NCBI GenBank assembly: GCA_937924755.1
Contig: CALEVZ010000077.1
Span: 1-41,770, forward strand
Reading direction: 5' to 3'
DNA length: 41,770 nt
DNA from: an uncultured bacterium
GTDB taxonomy: Bacteria > Acidobacteriota > Thermoanaerobaculia > Thermoanaerobaculales > Thermoanaerobaculaceae
Shown: one piece after another, positions 1,496 through 38,372 of the stretch
Numbering within the stretch: the stretch's first letter is position 1
How the letters are laid out: every line of letters starts with the position of its first letter
The notes under the pieces: generated by a model
What the model saw: only the letters and a program-made list of their open reading frames with translations
Databases searched by the model: none
Told to the model about the DNA's origin: nothing
Translations under genes and position numbers: made by a program

Positions 1496-2758
1496 CTAGG
1501 AGGGCTGGCGCGGCAACCCCAAAAAGGCCGCCAGCTCCTCCCCCTCGGCGCCGGCGGCGGCAAAGGCCAGCTGCCGTGCCCGGGCATCCTCCAGGGTCGG
1601 GCGGCAGCGGGCCGGCTCCAAGCCCAGCTCGGCCAGCCCCACCCACTCCCCGGTGGAGAGGATCGCCGCTCGCTCCAGGACGTTGGCCAGCTCCCGCACA
1701 TTCCCCGGCCAGGGGGCCAACAGCAGTGCCCCCTGGGCTGCCGGGCGCAGGGTGAGGGCCCGCCGCCCGAGGCGGGCGGCCACTCGTCCCAGAAGATGGG
1801 CAGCCAGCGCCGGGATGTCCTCCCGGCGCTCCGCCAGGGTCGGCAGGCGGATGGGAAACACGCTCAGGCGGTGGTACAGATCGGCGCGGAACGCCCCCTG
1901 CCGGACGGCGGCCTCCAGATCGCGGTTGGTGGCCGCCACCAGGCGCACGTCCACCGCCACCGTGCCGGTGCCCCCGAGGCGGCACACCGCCCGCTCCTCC
2001 AAGGCGCGCAGCAGCTTCACCTGCACCCCCAAGGGCACCTCGCCGATCTCGTCCAGCAGCAGCGTTCCGCCGCGCGCCTGCTCCAGTCGGCCCAGATGCC
2101 GCGCCGCCGCACCGGTGAACGCCCCCCGCTCGTAGCCGAACAGTTCCGCCTCGATGAGCGTTTCGGGCACCGCCGCGCAGTTGAAGGCCACGAAAGGTCC
2201 CCCCCGACGGGGGGAGAGGGCGTGGACAGTCTGGGCGAACAGCTCCTTGCCGGTGCCCGAGGCGCCCAGCAGCAGCACCGTGGCCTCGGTGGATGCCACC
2301 CGCCGCGCCGCCGCCAGGGCCGCGGTGAACAGCGGCGAGGTCCCCACCAGCACCGGCAGGCCGGCTTCCGCCGGGGCAGCGAGGAGCGCCTGGCGGGGCT
2401 GCACCGCCGCCCTCAACGCCGCCAGCACCCGATCCATGTCCAGGGGTTTCTGGAAATAGTCCCGCGCCCCCTGCTTGAGTGCCGCCACCGCCGTGTCCAC
2501 CGTGGCGTGGGCGGTCATCAGGAACACCGGCAGGTCGGGATCCTGCTGGCGCGCTGCCGCCAGCACCTGGATGCCATCGACGCCGGGGAGCTTGAGATCG
2601 GCGAGCACCGCCAAAAAACGCTCCCCTGACTGCAAGAGCGTTACCGCCTCATCCCCCCGCAGCGCCACGCGCACCGCATACCCCTCCCGCGCCAGCGTTT
2701 CCTCCAACATGGCCGCCAGGCTGCGACGGTCTTCCACCACCAGCACCGGCAGGCTCAC
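1496..2758 (-). CDS. Sigma-54-dependent response regulator, PilR/NtrC type, truncated HTH
   Basis: Cytoplasmic transcription activator of 420 residues. The receiver domain (about 4-118) has acidic E9/D10, phospho-acceptor Asp54, Thr82 and Lys104. The AAA+ domain (about 138-365) has Walker A GASGTGK (165-171) and the intact sigma-54 contact loop GAFTGA (212-217). The C-terminus begins like a Fis-type HTH ([11 protein letters not shown]...) but ends right after LGLPRQPS. The second (recognition) helix is therefore missing, and DNA binding through it is doubtful. Start: GTG 2758 overlaps the kinase stop in the string GTGA. An upstream ATG at 2806 would add 16 residues ahead of the receiver domain. 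It is last in the seven-gene operon, directly after its likely partner kinase and near the prepilin peptidase, so a PilR role is likely. NtrC or HydG subtypes cannot be excluded by sequence alone. Confidence 0.9.
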
Positions 2759-4407
2759 TGGGGTACCCCCTCCCGGGGCAGCCAGGCGACGAACCGGGCC
2801 CCGCACGAGAACTCCCCGTCGAGGGAGAGATCCCCCCCCAGCAGGCGCAGCAGACGGCGCGCCAGCGCCAGCCCGAAGCCGCCCGAGGGCTTGCTGGAAA
2901 CAAACGGCGAAAACACTTTCTCTCGTAGCCCAGGCGGGACGCCGGGGCCGTTGTCCTCCACCGTCACCTGAACGCCCTGGCTGCCGGCGGTCACCCGCAC
3001 CACCACCTGGGCATCTTCCCGCGCTTCGGCGGCGTTGCGCAGCAGGTTCTCCAGCACCACGGAAAGCGCGGTGCGGTCGGCCGCCACCACCACCTCGTCT
3101 CCCTCCACCGTGACCTTAAGGCGCGGAAACGCCCCCTGCAGGTGGCGCCCCGCCTCCTCGCAGACCCGGCGCAGCGGCACCCCCTCGCGGTGCAACAGGT
3201 GGGGTCGGGTGAAAGCGAGGAAGCGATCCACCAGGCGGTCCAGCCCCTCCGTCTCCGCGGCGATGGCCTCGAGGTAGCGAGGGCGCCGCTCCTCTCCGGC
3301 GTCGCCGAGCAGGCGAACGTAGCCCAGGATGGTGGCCAGGGCGTTGCGTACCTCGTGGGCCAGCCCGGCCGCCAGCTCGCCCAGCCCCGCCAGATGCTCC
3401 CGCTCCTCCAGCGCCCGCTCCAGCGCCTCCAAGCGTGTCCGGTCGGTCAGGAAAACCACCTCGCCCTGGGCTGTGCCGCTGGCCGAGGGTAACGGCAGGC
3501 GACGCACCTCCACGGTGCTTTCCCCCAGCCGTCGCCGGCCTTCACCCGCCAATGCCGGCGAGGCGAGGGGCGCGCCCACGGTCAGTTCCGCACCCAGCAG
3601 CTCCTCCGCCACGGCGTTGGCGGCGCGCACCGCCCCCGTCGCGTCGGTGATCACCACCCCCACCTCCGAGGAGCGGGTGAGCACGTCGGCCAGCACCTCC
3701 AGTTCGTCGGCGCGGCGCTTCAACTGCGCCTCGGACTCTTCCAGACGGCGCACCGCGTCGCGGAAGGTTTCCACCAGATAACGGTCCTCGGCGCGGTCGG
3801 GGGAACGCTGGGCCAGGCGCGCCGCCTCGGCGAGCAGGTCCCGGTAGGGGCTCAGCGCCCGAGCGATCAACACCCAGGCCAACAACACCCCACCTCCGGC
3901 CACCGCCAACCCCAAGGCCGCCCCCATCCACCGCCAGCGCAGCGCCGGGGAGGTGGTCGGGATGGGCTGTACCACGCGCAGGGCGCGCCCCCCACCCAGG
4001 TCGTGGTAGGCCACCATCACCCGCTCCCCCAGCAGGCGCTCGGGACCAGCCACCTGCCACCCCGACGCCACCCACCTCTCGCGGGACCCCCACGGCCACC
4101 AGGGGGGTTTCTCCGGTCCGGCCAGACCCACGCGGGCCACCACCCGCCCCCCCTCCAGCACCGCCACCCCTCCCCACACCTCGGGCAGGTCGCGGGTCAG
4201 CTCCTGCACGCTGGCGTGGGCTGCCATGATCCCCAGAAGTTGCGCCAGCGCCGCCGCCGACTCCGCCGCCTGCCGGTTGGCTGCCCGCCCCATGGCCAGC
4301 ATCCCCTGCACCACCACCAGCACCACCAGGAGCAGCAGCACCAGCGCCGCGCCGATCAGGCGCCGCACCTCGGCGAAGCGGCGGGAGGGAAGCGCCGAGT
4401 TCACCAT
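2755..4407 (-). CDS. Membrane sensor histidine kinase, PilS/NtrB-like
   Basis: Inner-membrane kinase of 550 residues that should phosphorylate the following regulator. Segments in order: TM1 (about 18-37), an extracytoplasmic stretch of about 120 residues, TM2 (about 162-182), a HAMP-like linker with coiled coil (183-235), a PAS domain (about 236-320), HisKA with GLAHEVRNALATI and phospho-acceptor His351, then HATPase_c with ENLLRNA (N box, Asn457), DNGPGVP (G1, about 485-491) and GGFGLALARRLL (G2, about 509-520). ATG 4407 overlaps the peptidase stop by 7 bases (ATGGTGA). GTG 4404 would give the 4-base overlap common in this window, so the start is uncertain by one codon. The operon also carries the prepilin peptidase, which favours a PilS-like role. 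The extracytoplasmic region is not a sensor fold I recognise, so the signal is unknown. Confidence 0.92.
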   Translation of the reverse strand: MVNSALPSRRFAEVRRLIGAALVLLLLVVLVVVQGMLAMGRAANRQAAESAAALAQLLGIMAAHASVQELTRDLPEVWGGVAVLEGGRVVARVGLAGPEKPPWWPWGSRERWVASGWQVAGPERLLGERVMVAYHDLGGGRALRVVQPIPTTSPALRWRWMGAALGLAVAGGGVLLAWVLIARALSPYRDLLAEAARLAQRSPDRAEDRYLVETFRDAVRRLEESEAQLKRRADELEVLADVLTRSSEVGVVITDATGAVRAANAVAEELLGAELTVGAPLASPALAGEGRRRLGESTVEVRRLPLPSASGTAQGEVVFLTDRTRLEALERALEEREHLAGLGELAAGLAHEVRNALATILGYVRLLGDAGEERRPRYLEAIAAETEGLDRLVDRFLAFTRPHLLHREGVPLRRVCEEAGRHLQGAFPRLKVTVEGDEVVVAADRTALSVVLENLLRNAAEAREDAQVVVRVTAGSQGVQVTVEDNGPGVPPGLREKVFSPFVSSKPSGGFGLALARRLLRLLGGDLSLDGEFSCGARFVAWLPREGVPQ

Positions 4408-5174
4408 CGGCCCCAACCGAAAAGCGCCAGCAGCGGGGCGCGAGCAAACAGCACCACCAGCGCCGCAGTCGCCAGGAAGCTGCCGAAGGGCAGCTCGGTG
4501 TCCGCCTTGCCCCGCCCGGCCAGCACCAACCCGATGCCCACCACGGCCCCGGCGCAGGCCCCCAGGCAGAGCGTCAGCAGCGCCCCCTGCCAACCCAGGA
4601 AGGCGCCGATCATGGCCAAGAGCTTCACGTCCCCCAGGCCCATCCCCTCCACCCCGCGCACCAGCCGGTAGAGCACGATGACAGCGTAGGGCAGCGCCGC
4701 CCCCAGGGCGGCACCGATGAGGGCGTCCCGCACCGGCACCAGCCCGCCCACCAGGGAAAACAGCAGGCCAGCCACGATTCCCGGCAGGGTCAACACGTCC
4801 GGCAACAGATAGTGCTCCAAATCGATGAGTGCCAGTGCCAGCAGCAGGGCCCCCAGCACCAGCGCCGCTGCCCCCGCCACGCTCACCCCGAAGCGTGCAG
4901 CGATACCCGCTAGCAGCAGCGAGGTGGCCAGTTCCACCAAGGGATAGCGAACCGAAACGGCGGCCTTGCAGCGCCGACACCGCCCGCGCAGCAGCAGCCA
5001 CGACAGCACCGGGATGTTGTCGAACCAGCGAATCGTGGCGCCGCAGGCGGGGCAGTGGGAGCGCGGCCGCAGGACGGACATCTGGCGTGGCACGCGGTAC
5101 ACCACAACGTTGAGAAAGCTGCCCAGCACCAGCCCGTAGGCCGCGGCAACGGCGATCAGCTCCGGTTCCGCCAT
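4401..5174 (-). CDS. pilD: Type IV prepilin peptidase / N-methyltransferase
   Basis: Bifunctional inner-membrane aspartic protease of 257 residues that cleaves type IV pilin and pseudopilin leaders after glycine and N-methylates the new first residue. The N-terminal methyltransferase segment has two CxxC pairs (Cys41/44 and Cys66/69), as in the zinc-containing class. Catalytic aspartates sit in IDLEHYLLPD (Asp118) and GMGLGDVK (Asp182), followed by several hydrophobic helices. Length is typical (250-290). ATG 5174 lies inside the end of the preceding glycosyltransferase gene (19-base overlap). Probable substrates in this window are the two pilin-like proteins at 35.0-36.0 kb, whose leaders end in Gly before Phe-Thr-Leu. 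Its place between a glycosyltransferase and a two-component pair is unusual, as pilD usually sits with pilB/pilC, neither of which is here. Confidence 0.95.
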   Translation of the reverse strand: MAEPELIAVAAAYGLVLGSFLNVVVYRVPRQMSVLRPRSHCPACGATIRWFDNIPVLSWLLLRGRCRRCKAAVSVRYPLVELATSLLLAGIAARFGVSVAGAAALVLGALLLALALIDLEHYLLPDVLTLPGIVAGLLFSLVGGLVPVRDALIGAALGAALPYAVIVLYRLVRGVEGMGLGDVKLLAMIGAFLGWQGALLTLCLGACAGAVVGIGLVLAGRGKADTELPFGSFLATAALVVLFARAPLLALFGWGRW

Positions 5175-34995: not shown

Positions 34996-35454
34996 TCAGT
35001 TCTGCAACCCTTCCGGCCACTGCACGAAGGAGCCGTTAGTGAAGATGATGTCGTCGTCAAACGAGGTGGTCGGACCGCCGACATAATTTATATTGGTGTT
35101 CTTGTTGCGGGTCCCCGACCACAGGGTGTACTCCCGCCCGAACGTGCCGTCGCCGATCACGTAGATGTCGCCGTTCCAGCCGTCGGCCACGGGAATGCGA
35201 CGGATATAGGTGGGCTCCAGGTACGGATAAAGGAGCGCGCGCGCCTGCCCTTGGCCAACCCTGGGGTACTGGTTGTAGTCCACCGAGTACGACTCGATCG
35301 CCGTGCCGATGTTGCGGATGTCAGCCATCGTCCGCTTCTGGCGGCCGCGGTTGATGGCGTTGAGCAGGTTGGGGATGGCGATTGCCGCGATGATCCCGAT
35401 GATCGCCACCACGATGAGCAACTCGATCAGGGTGAAACCTTTTTGTCTCCTCAT
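34996..35454 (-). CDS. Type IV pilin-like / pseudopilin protein
   Basis: Protein of 152 residues with a class III prepilin leader: MRRQKG cut before FTLIELLIVVAIIGIIAAIA, with Glu5 of the mature chain present, then the N-terminal helix continuing to about residue 55. The globular part (YPRVGQGQARALLYPYLEPTYI, DGWNGDIYVIG, REYTLWSG) resembles GspG-like major pseudopilins or short pilins. It ends SFVQWPEGLQN, an ending shared almost exactly with the next pilin. Probable substrate of the prepilin peptidase at 4.4 kb. ATG 35454 has GGGAGAG about 5 bases upstream, and a sigma-54 element is 28 bases upstream. Whether it forms a pilus or a secretion pseudopilus is undecided, as no pilus motor or secretin gene is here. 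Confidence 0.92.
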   Translation of the reverse strand: MRRQKGFTLIELLIVVAIIGIIAAIAIPNLLNAINRGRQKRTMADIRNIGTAIESYSVDYNQYPRVGQGQARALLYPYLEPTYIRRIPVADGWNGDIYVIGDGTFGREYTLWSGTRNKNTNINYVGGPTTSFDDDIIFTNGSFVQWPEGLQN

Positions 35455-35481
35455 ATCTCTCTCCCTTCGCCCAAGCTATTA

Positions 35482-35497
35482 AGCAAAACCCATGCCT
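35482..35497 (-). promoter_or_regulatory. Sigma-54 (-24/-12) promoter of the first pilin gene
   Basis: On the minus strand AGGCATGGGTTTTGCT matches TGGCACG-N4-TTGCW: GGCA, the G at position 7 and TTGCT fit, and the GG-to-GC spacing is exactly 12. The start of transcription would fall about 16 bases before ATG 35454, leaving room for the GGGAGAG ribosome-binding site. Confidence 0.7.
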
Positions 35498-35579
35498 ACT
35501 TCAAAAACCCTTCGCTCCATCCCGGTGACGCTGAGCGGCACCGAGGGCCGGCGCCAGTGCCGTCTCGCGCGCCGCCCGA

Positions 35580-36029
35580 TCATCGCTGCGCCCCCTCCGG
35601 CCACTGCACGAACGTGCCGCTGGCCAGCACGATGTCCGCCTCGAAACGGGTGGTGGGACCGAAACTGATCGAGGTATCCTGGAGATTGTCCGCCCCGCGG
35701 CTACGAAGCGTGTACTGCGTGCCCGCCGCCGTGTAGAAGAGGGGGTTTCCCCACCCATCCCGAGTGGGCAGATGCCTGCCATAAGTCGGGCTCAGGTAAG
35801 GTACGATGTCGGCGACCGTGCCCCCTGCCACCTGCGGCACGGTGGCCCAGTCAGTGGCGTAGGACGAGACCGCCAAGGACACGGTGCGGATGTTGGACAC
35901 CGTGGCCTGCTGGCGGGCCCGCTGCCACACCTGGAAGAAGTTGGCGGCCGCAATGGCGACGATCACTCCCAGCACCGCCACGACGACAAGTAGTTCCACC
36001 AGGGTGAAGCCGCGAAGGCCACGATTCAT
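35580..36029 (-). CDS. Type IV pilin-like / pseudopilin protein
   Basis: Protein of 149 residues. Leader MNRGLRG is cut before FTLVELLVVVAVLGVIVAIA (Glu5 present). The soluble part carries DGWGNPLFYTAAGTQYTLRS, the GspG-like DGWGNPL block, and ends FVQWPEGAQR. It is clearly a paralogue of the downstream pilin, from which it is separated by 125 bases containing the latter's own promoter, so the two can be expressed independently. Start ATG 36029 is the only start that fits the leader; no Shine-Dalgarno is visible and a sigma-54 element ends about 12 bases before it, predicting an almost leaderless mRNA. No clear terminator follows. Processing by the PilD at 4.4 kb is inferred. Confidence 0.92.
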   Translation of the reverse strand: MNRGLRGFTLVELLVVVAVLGVIVAIAAANFFQVWQRARQQATVSNIRTVSLAVSSYATDWATVPQVAGGTVADIVPYLSPTYGRHLPTRDGWGNPLFYTAAGTQYTLRSRGADNLQDTSISFGPTTRFEADIVLASGTFVQWPEGAQR

Positions 36030-36040
36030 GCCGAGGGCGA

Positions 36041-36058
36041 ATGCAAAAACGAGGCCAA
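36041..36058 (-). promoter_or_regulatory. Sigma-54 (-24/-12) promoter of the second pilin gene
   Basis: On the minus strand TTGGCCTCGTTTTTGCAT contains TGGC and TTGCA with the GG-to-GC spacing of exactly 12 that sigma-54 requires. The predicted transcription start is about 2 bases before ATG 36029. The element lies in the 54-base gap shared with the divergent YfhO-like gene. Confidence 0.65.
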
Positions 36059-36083: not shown

Positions 36084-38372
36084 ATGTCCCGCACCACGTC
36101 AGCCCTGATCCTCCTGGTGGGGCTGTGGGGCGCAGTGTTTCTGCCGGCGCTGCTACGCGGCCACACCTTCCCGGCCCGGGACGTGGGGGCTACCCATATC
36201 CCCTGGCGAGCGGAGGCACAGCGGCAGCTGGCCACCGGCCACGTTCCCCTGTGGAACCCCCTGGCCAACGGCGGCCGGCCGCTGCTGGCCAACCCCAACG
36301 CCCAAGCCGGCTATCCCCTTACGCTGCTCCTGCTGGCGATGGATCCCGAACGCTTTCTCGCCCTCTCCCTCGCCTTCCATCACCTGTTCTTCGTCCTCGG
36401 CTGTTTCGCCCTTGCCCGCCGGGCCGGCGCGGGCGGCGGAGCTGCGGCGGTGGCTGCCGCCGCGGTGGGCTTTTCAGGCTTTCCCCTGTCGGCGACGCTC
36501 CTGCCCAATTTGCAGGCCTCCCTGGCCTGGGGGCCGTGGGCACTGGCAACGGCACTGCCAGGTGACGACCGCTCCCGGTGGGTGAGGCGAGCGCTGCTGG
36601 GAGGTGCCTGCCTGGGGCTCTCGTTTCTCGGCGGAGAACCTGTCACCGCGGCCCTCGTCGCCCTCACGTGGGCGGTGGTCGCGATCTGGAGTCACCCGCG
36701 ACGGGCGCCACTCGGCCTGGCTCTGGCCGGCGCCGCCGCCGTGGGAGTCGCGGCGCCGGTGCTCCTGCCGCTTTTGACCGTGTACCGGGACACCGCCCGG
36801 GCCGCCCTGCCAGGAGCCCCCGGGGCGCTCGCCGCCGACGCCCTGGCGCCGCGCCGCTGGATCGAACTGTTCTTGCCCCATGTGCTGGGGGACTTTCACG
36901 CCGCCACCGCGCCGGCCTTCTGGGCCGCCCCCAGCTTTCCCTGGCTGCGCTACTTCCCGGCGCTGTTCGTCGGCGTGTTACCGGTCCTTCTGGCCTGGCG
37001 AGCCGGGTTCTCCAGCCGAACTGCCCCGTGGTGGGCAGTCGCCGGGGCCGGCACCGCTGGCGCCGTCCTGGGGGGGGTTGTTCCCGGCGCCGAAGACCTG
37101 GCGGTGCCCCACGTGCGCTACGCCATCAAGCTCCTGGTGTGGACCGGGCTAGCCCTACCGCCCCTGGTGGCGCTGGGGTGGGAGCGCCTCACCGCGGAGA
37201 GCCAGCGATCCCTGCGGCGCCACGGCGTCGCCGCTGCGGCTGCGGTTGCCCCCATGATCCTGCTGGCCGCCTTCCCGGAGTCGTTGACGCGCCCACTGCT
37301 GGCCCGGATCTACCCCGCCTCGGCGAAGGCGCTCGCCCAGGTGCCGCCCGGCAGCCTCTCCAACCGCCTGGTCCTGGACACCACCGCCCTGGCTCTCCCG
37401 CTGGCGGTTCTCTCCCTCGCCCCCGGGGCCCCCCTGGCGGTGGCGGCGGCGGCCGGCGCCGGCGGAGTGCTGGCCACCTGGGGTCTGCTGGTCGGCGAGC
37501 CCGCCTCCCGTTGGGCGAGCCCTCCCCCCTTGGCGGAGGGACTTTCGCCCGGCACTCGGCTGGTCGCCCTTGCGCCTGCCGCCGAACCGGTCGCCACGGA
37601 GGACGGCCCGCTGGCCCACTACCAGGCCATGCGTGCTGCGCTGGTTCCCAACTACCCCAACCGCTGGGGACTGGGGACGGTGCTGGAGCGCGGCCCCGAC
37701 GGTCTCGAGTCGGCCCGCCACGAGCTCCTGGCGGCGGCCGTCAGTACCCTGCCCACGGAGCTCCGGGCGCGGGTGGCGGCAGCCCTGGGAGCGCAAGTGG
37801 CAATCACTCCTGAGGAACCCATCGACGCTGGCGGCGAACGCATCGCCGGTGTGTGGCGCCGGCGCCTGCCGGCAGCGCCCGAGGCCTATCTGGCAGAGCG
37901 CCTCCTTTTCGCTCAAGGCGCACTGGCCACGGCAGCGACCCTGGGCGCTGCTCCGTTTCGACCGGGGTGGGACGCGGTGCTGGAGGGAGACGGTGGAGTC
38001 CAGGATCTGGCTCCAGGACAGTTGGCCGAACTACCCGGAGCGCCCCACCGCCGCACCTTTCGGGTGCAGGCACCCGAGGGTGCCCTGCTCGTTCTGCAAC
38101 AGAGCCACATGCGTTGCTGGCGGGCAGACATCGACGGTAAGCGAACGTCCATCGTCACCGTCAACGGTGCCATGATGGGGGTGTGGGTGCCGAAGGGAGA
38201 ACACCGGGTGCGACTGGCCATCGACCCCACCCCATACCGTCTGGGCCTGGTCGGTCCGATACTGGTGCTGCTGGCGCTGGGGCTCACCCGGCGGGGGGGC
38301 GCATGGCGGGGCCGCGGGGCACCCAGCGGTGACGCGGAGCGTAACTCCCCGGCCACCCCACCGGCGCGGTGA
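36084..38372 (+). CDS. YfhO-like multi-spanning membrane protein (GT-C type)
   Basis: Integral membrane protein of 762 residues. HTFPARDVGATHIPWRAEA, HVPLWNPLANGGRPLLANPN and GYPLTLLLLAMDPERF near the N-terminus are the family signature; about 12 helices follow, then a periplasmic-type domain ending LLVLQQSHMRCWRADIDGKR and GVWVPKGEHRVRLAIDPTPYR before a final helix. YfhO proteins of Firmicutes glycosylate teichoic polymers; in Gram-negative genomes their acceptor is unknown. ATG 36084 is divergent from the pilins. The last 30 residues, after the final helix, are Arg/Gly/Pro-rich and overlap the end of the convergent wzt-like gene by 89 bases, so the ancestral end may have been shorter. It is a paralogue of the protein at 29.6-31.7 kb. 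Confidence 0.85.
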   Translation: MSRTTSALILLVGLWGAVFLPALLRGHTFPARDVGATHIPWRAEAQRQLATGHVPLWNPLANGGRPLLANPNAQAGYPLTLLLLAMDPERFLALSLAFHHLFFVLGCFALARRAGAGGGAAAVAAAAVGFSGFPLSATLLPNLQASLAWGPWALATALPGDDRSRWVRRALLGGACLGLSFLGGEPVTAALVALTWAVVAIWSHPRRAPLGLALAGAAAVGVAAPVLLPLLTVYRDTARAALPGAPGALAADALAPRRWIELFLPHVLGDFHAATAPAFWAAPSFPWLRYFPALFVGVLPVLLAWRAGFSSRTAPWWAVAGAGTAGAVLGGVVPGAEDLAVPHVRYAIKLLVWTGLALPPLVALGWERLTAESQRSLRRHGVAAAAAVAPMILLAAFPESLTRPLLARIYPASAKALAQVPPGSLSNRLVLDTTALALPLAVLSLAPGAPLAVAAAAGAGGVLATWGLLVGEPASRWASPPPLAEGLSPGTRLVALAPAAEPVATEDGPLAHYQAMRAALVPNYPNRWGLGTVLERGPDGLESARHELLAAAVSTLPTELRARVAAALGAQVAITPEEPIDAGGERIAGVWRRRLPAAPEAYLAERLLFAQGALATAATLGAAPFRPGWDAVLEGDGGVQDLAPGQLAELPGAPHRRTFRVQAPEGALLVLQQSHMRCWRADIDGKRTSIVTVNGAMMGVWVPKGEHRVRLAIDPTPYRLGLVGPILVLLALGLTRRGGAWRGRGAPSGDAERNSPATPPAR

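Follow-up and report, generated by a model that had tools for sequence, protein, structure and literature searches.

The closest described counterpart of the system analysed here is the control of pilA by PilS, PilR and RpoN in Pseudomonas aeruginosa, Geobacter sulfurreducens and Myxococcus, with which it shares an RpoN promoter before the pilin, a membrane PilS with six segments, a PilR made of receiver, AAA+ and Fis HTH domains, and adjacent pilB, pilT and pilC genes. It differs in having two pilins with a promoter each, in the location of the pilins and pilR on different contigs, in a palindrome, GTGACGYNNNRCGTCAC, and in a second pilin that is apparently leaderless and has, behind it, a putative activator site. 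Sigma-54 enhancers that lie downstream have precedents. The ftr/FlbD activator sites of Caulobacter lie downstream of the transcription start and are true enhancers there. In Vibrio, FlrC also acts from true enhancers downstream of the start, within the promoter region (PMC6504787). Unlike either, the putative site considered here is placed past the gene's 3' end, at a distance of about 470-620 nt from the inferred start. It doubles, in gene pairs, as the upstream site of the next gene. The leaderless mRNAs of Deinococcus, Leptospira, Mycobacterium and Sinorhizobium likewise combine a promoter element directly before the start codon with the lack of a Shine-Dalgarno sequence, but their sigma-70 -10 box is here replaced by a -24/-12 element. 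A literature search of limited coverage found no description of a leaderless sigma-54 gene that is conserved, nothing useful on pilus regulation in Acidobacteriota, and no paper on a pilus regulon in Thermoanaerobaculia.

Two pilin genes and their sigma-54 promoters

The window, by which we mean the whole 41.8-kb stretch of DNA that was analysed, belongs to a genome of 3.35 Mb in 86 contigs. The comparison covered 37 genomes of the order, the named relatives being Thermoanaerobaculum and other Thermoanaerobaculales (Acidobacteriota); for metagenome assemblies, gene starts were set by rule. The features of the pilin locus are as follows.

34996..35454, minus strand: pilin 1, 152 aa, with a class III signal peptide, T2SSG-like (N_methyl 3e-11)
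35461..35467, minus strand: Shine-Dalgarno sequence of pilin 1, AAGGGAG, anti-SD energy -12.6 kcal/mol
35482..35497, minus strand: -24/-12 sigma-54 element of pilin 1, AGGCATGGGTTTTGCT, read directly from the sequence and kept in orthologues
35525..35541, minus strand: candidate activator palindrome GTGCCGCTCAGCGTCAC, 13/14, centred 50 nt upstream of the -12 C of pilin 1 and at about +498 from the pilin 2 start
35580..36029, minus strand: pilin 2, 149 aa, a paralogue of pilin 1, its start codon fixed by the prepilin Gly
36042..36057, minus strand: -24/-12 sigma-54 element of pilin 2, TGGCCTCGTTTTTGCA, read directly from the sequence
36086..36102, minus strand: weak copy of the candidate activator site, upstream of pilin 2, CTGACGTGGTGCGGGAC, 11/14, centred 51 nt upstream of the -12 C of pilin 2

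Both ORFs carry N_methyl and T2SSG pilin domains, a prepilin signal being followed by a T2SSG-like body. Pilin 1 matches solved chains of GspG, geopilin and type IV pilins, has homologues in 37/37 genomes of the order, and is likely the major type IV pilin.

The pilin -24/-12 elements are conserved across the order Thermoanaerobaculales, in two families, and the case for them is stronger than first noted. The first-pass annotation had described correctly spaced sigma-54 elements before both pilins, and the sequence is as it said: the GG-to-GC offset is 12 in each, in a TGGCAYRNNNNTTGCW context. Across the 3.35-Mb genome there are 23 matches to the strict pattern GGCAYNNNNNTTGCW and 9 to its reversed control, and the single match to the strict pattern in the window is the element of pilin 1. 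Taken alone the element of pilin 2 is weaker, at 10/12 (nine places in the window score at least 10), and before pilin 2 orthologues the element scores 10-12/12 in every genome examined. Altogether 52 pilin-1 and pilin-2 genes from both families are preceded by a -24/-12 element (10-12 of 12 letters), as against 1/35 other pseudopilin genes of the same genomes; three further pilin paralogues of one genus have none, and most pilin-1 orthologues of Acidobacteriota outside the order retain it. The genome also has rpoN, which the annotation had proposed to look for, in one copy. This conservation and the presence of rpoN support the predicted sigma-54 control of both pilins.

In the rest of the window, the glycan cluster included, there is no further sigma-54 site of at least 11/12. 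The sole positive among the 35 other pseudopilins lies before the minor-pilin cluster on contig C23 of the window genome, where TGGCATGGGATATGCA (G000, about C23:25824-25839) stands 15 nt before the first gene and marks a possible further sigma-54 target. Pseudopilins of the C65 type were also considered as targets and were set aside, there being no sites at them.

Leaders and translation starts of the two pilins

Transcription from sigma-54 promoters starts about 12 nt after the GC. The predicted +1 of pilin 1 in the window is at about 35471, which gives a 17-nt leader, and that of pilin 2 at about 36031, with a leader of about 2 nt and no Shine-Dalgarno sequence. The prepilin glycine leaves only a few codons of uncertainty about the reading start, which allows the distance between the -12 element and the start to be measured across genomes. 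Counted from the -12 C, it is 26-39 nt for pilin 1, with a mean anti-SD energy of -13.8 kcal/mol (n=25). For pilin 2 it is 11-17 nt, with a mean of -2.6 kcal/mol (n=23), and there is no overlap between the energies of the two genes even if the start with the best Shine-Dalgarno sequence is chosen for pilin 2. The corresponding inferred leaders are 15-28 nt with a strong Shine-Dalgarno sequence and about 0-6 nt. With +1 placed from the -12 element, a close start and the absence of a Shine-Dalgarno sequence go together at pilin 2 in 22/23 genomes. A Shine-Dalgarno-like stretch precedes pilin 2 in genomes G030 and G021, and in genus g10, whose pilin 2 is placed behind pilin 1, such a stretch accompanies a gap of 24-25 nt.

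This arrangement suggests that the pilin 2 mRNA is a leaderless or near-leaderless sigma-54 mRNA. A start codon that close to a -12 element could also mean that pilin 2 owes most of its transcription to a promoter farther upstream that escaped notice, with a leader of the normal kind, the -24/-12 element being a secondary promoter or a parking site for sigma-54. We think this unlikely: pilin 2 has no Shine-Dalgarno sequence in nearly all genomes, so that a longer leader would supply none, and the distance from element to start is held at about 14 nt even with signal peptides longer by 4-5 residues, and is again 14 nt in genera whose signal peptide has about 10 residues.

In 383 kb of the window genome that were sampled, genes without a Shine-Dalgarno sequence show a peak of TANNNT 6-9 nt before the start (14/80), where leaderless genes read by sigma-70 would be expected to have it. 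This genome, and so this lineage of Acidobacteriota, seems to contain genes of that kind.

A palindrome between and behind the pilins

In 20/26 genomes of both families, the centre of the palindrome GTGACGYNNNRCGTCAC falls 50-52 nt before the -12 C of pilin 1, or at about -62 from the inferred pilin-1 start. The window copy has one mismatch and is one of eight places in the genome with at most one. A full palindrome is absent at pilin 1 of genera g10 and g6, two g7 genomes have it at 82 rather than 50-52, and outside the order related TGAC(A/G)-N5-(T/C)GTCA sites lie farther upstream. A near-perfect second palindrome in the window, GTGACGCGGAGCGTAAC (38329-38345), is 2.8 kb away from the first and close to where ORF 36084-38372 has its 3' end, with no sigma-54 site of at least 11/12 beside it.

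The palindrome is able to fold into a 7-bp hairpin and is often found immediately past the stop codon, as would be a transcription terminator of pilin 2 that falls upstream of pilin 1 by accident. We consider this reading very unlikely: the distance of the palindrome to the -12 element of pilin 1 is fixed at 50-52 nt even at pilin-1 genes that are separate from pilin 2 or have no pilin 2 at all, most copies have no T-run, degenerate copies such as GTGACGTTGTGGGGCAC lose the pairing and retain the TGACG letters, and tandem copies occur 31-32 nt apart. An activator site remains the preferred reading of the palindrome.

Genomes in which pilin 2 is solitary bear on the genes that such a site would serve. 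There are nine, from four genera, with a divergent tRNA-Gly gene beside pilin 2. In 9/9 of them, one or two palindromes lie 5-182 nt past the stop codon of pilin 2, the nearest at no more than 150 nt, and in three loci they are in tandem, 31-32 nt apart. The search matrix was built from pilin-1 sites alone and has a background of 4 matches per 317,790 positions, or 0.003 expected per 250 nt. The same matrix finds 0/9 sites upstream of solitary pilin 2, and palindromes at 0/3 of the paralogues without a sigma-54 promoter. No sigma-54 element of at least 10/12 is present on either strand in the 400 nt behind the solitary pilin-2 stop. The nine cases are probably not independent and descend from one ancestor, because the loci, with the same tRNA-Gly neighbour, look like one inherited locus.

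The palindrome behind solitary pilin 2 is a probable downstream enhancer, which in the pair would be common to both genes. In the simplest reading, the site would activate pilin 2 from about +470 to +620 and, in the pair, pilin 1 from -62. The pair is probably the older arrangement, because it is found in both families, and the solitary copies might accordingly be relics of a lost pilin-1 promoter, with pilin 2 served by an activator that has no conserved site. This is rather improbable, since the -24/-12 element of pilin 1 is gone in 9/9 solitary loci, whereas the palindrome and its tandem copies have been kept in four genera with unalike flanks.

A downstream enhancer may not be the only one of pilin 2 in the window, where there is also the weak upstream site, CTGACGTGGTGCGGGAC. 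This site has a position-specific p of about 0.0005 and coincides in part with the start of the divergent ORF at 36084. Genera g2 and g6 are the only others with comparable full or half sites at the -62 place of pilin 2. In these two genera and the window genome, upstream activation of pilin 2 may have been added or substituted. In family f2, there is no conserved upstream activator site for pilin 2, and the shared upstream feature is the divergent tRNA-Gly gene only.

A proposed regulator and a model for the pilin pair

Three further genes of the window concern processing and control.

1496..2806, minus strand: response regulator of the sigma-54 activator type, not PilR; GAFTGA present, C-terminus without a full Fis HTH
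2755..4400 (start approximate), minus strand: histidine kinase, not PilS; no 6TM_PilS domain, clear orthologues confined to its own family
4401..5170 (start approximate), minus strand: PilD prepilin peptidase with A24_N and Peptidase_A24 domains

The annotation had recognized a prepilin peptidase here, and this is PilD, the single A24 peptidase of the genome. It had also seen a PilS/PilR-like set 30 kb from the pilins, and in this it was mistaken, as the true pair sits on contig C10, in an operon of the order pilB-pilT-pilC-pilS-pilR. The C10 PilS is a 558-aa kinase with 6TM_PilS and HisKA/HATPase domains, and PilR is a 450-aa receiver-AAA+-HTH_8 activator. Orthologues of this PilS occur in 35/37 genomes and are missing from none of the 25 most complete ones. 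Of three marks of PilS/PilR, namely a 6TM domain, a Fis HTH and pilBTC neighbours, the window pair (1496-4400) has none (0/3) and the C10 pair has all. Compared with activators that bear the HTH, the window activator and its orthologues are cut off some 30-40 residues early, and Pfam HTH_8 is present in C10 PilR and absent from the window activator; strong matches to the window kinase are restricted to its own family, although the pilin promoters are kept in both families. We therefore rejected the window kinase and activator as PilS/PilR. The "split regulon" that had been proposed, with processing and control in a glycan operon and the pilins elsewhere, is true in another sense: the regulator is on C10, and PilD and the pilins are in the glycan region.

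The window pair, under whatever name, might still drive the pilin promoters, with the activator working from solution because it is without a full HTH. It carries GAFTGA, and kinase and activator lie within 15-33 kb of the pilins in seven genomes of family f1. Family f2, however, has no clear orthologue of the pair and has the same promoters and palindromes, a driver of this kind cannot account for the conserved palindrome, and the PilS with the 6TM domain is nearly universal; we judge it distinctly unlikely. In six other family members the pilins and the PilD-kinase-activator set are 15-18 kb apart on one contig, so this linkage is conserved though the regulator of the pilins is a different system. 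The window genome has 12 strong sigma-54 activators, and that PilR is the one that binds the palindrome is inferred from its operon context, its near-universality and precedent. In genus g10, where the pilins are without the palindrome, PilR has the recognition helix RSFRYY for RAFRYH, a possible co-change of protein and site.

Other observations concern the region around PilD. PilD, the kinase and the HTH-incomplete sigma-54 activator (1496-5170) form a gene set conserved in one family. At 62-1498, the stop codon of selA (selenocysteine synthase) directly adjoins that of the convergent activator gene (1495/1496). TGA codons inside the kinase matches of relatives were considered as selenocysteine and discarded, as they lie where the query ORF runs into PilD in a different frame.

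We favour, with moderate confidence, a sigma-54/PilR-type pilin pair with a shared palindrome, activation by PilR, a near-leaderless pilin 2 and a single PilD. Phosphorylated PilR, encoded on C10 beside PilS and the pilus motors, would bind the palindrome between the pilins. At pilin 1 it would remodel RpoN-polymerase from the usual upstream place (-62), and at pilin 2 it would do so through a DNA loop, from a position about 500 bp downstream. The 5' end of the pilin 2 mRNA would coincide with the start codon or lie a few nt from it, and translation would proceed without a Shine-Dalgarno sequence, so that the two subunits would be co-induced and translated by different routes, by which the subunit ratio may be set. 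The single PilD of the linked glycan region would process both pilins. We give about an even chance to the proposal of a conserved module in which one PilR site would activate the second gene, pilin 1, from upstream and the first, pilin 2, from behind its 3' end, with a leaderless first mRNA and two modes of translation.

These loci offer natural replicates for testing whether an enhancer can act from past the 3' end of a bacterial gene, and pilin 2, a conserved gene with a -24/-12 promoter, is a candidate for being leaderless. With the PilS/PilR assignment corrected, the palindrome provides a defined motif that may serve as activator site in the pilus regulon of Thermoanaerobaculia (Acidobacteriota).
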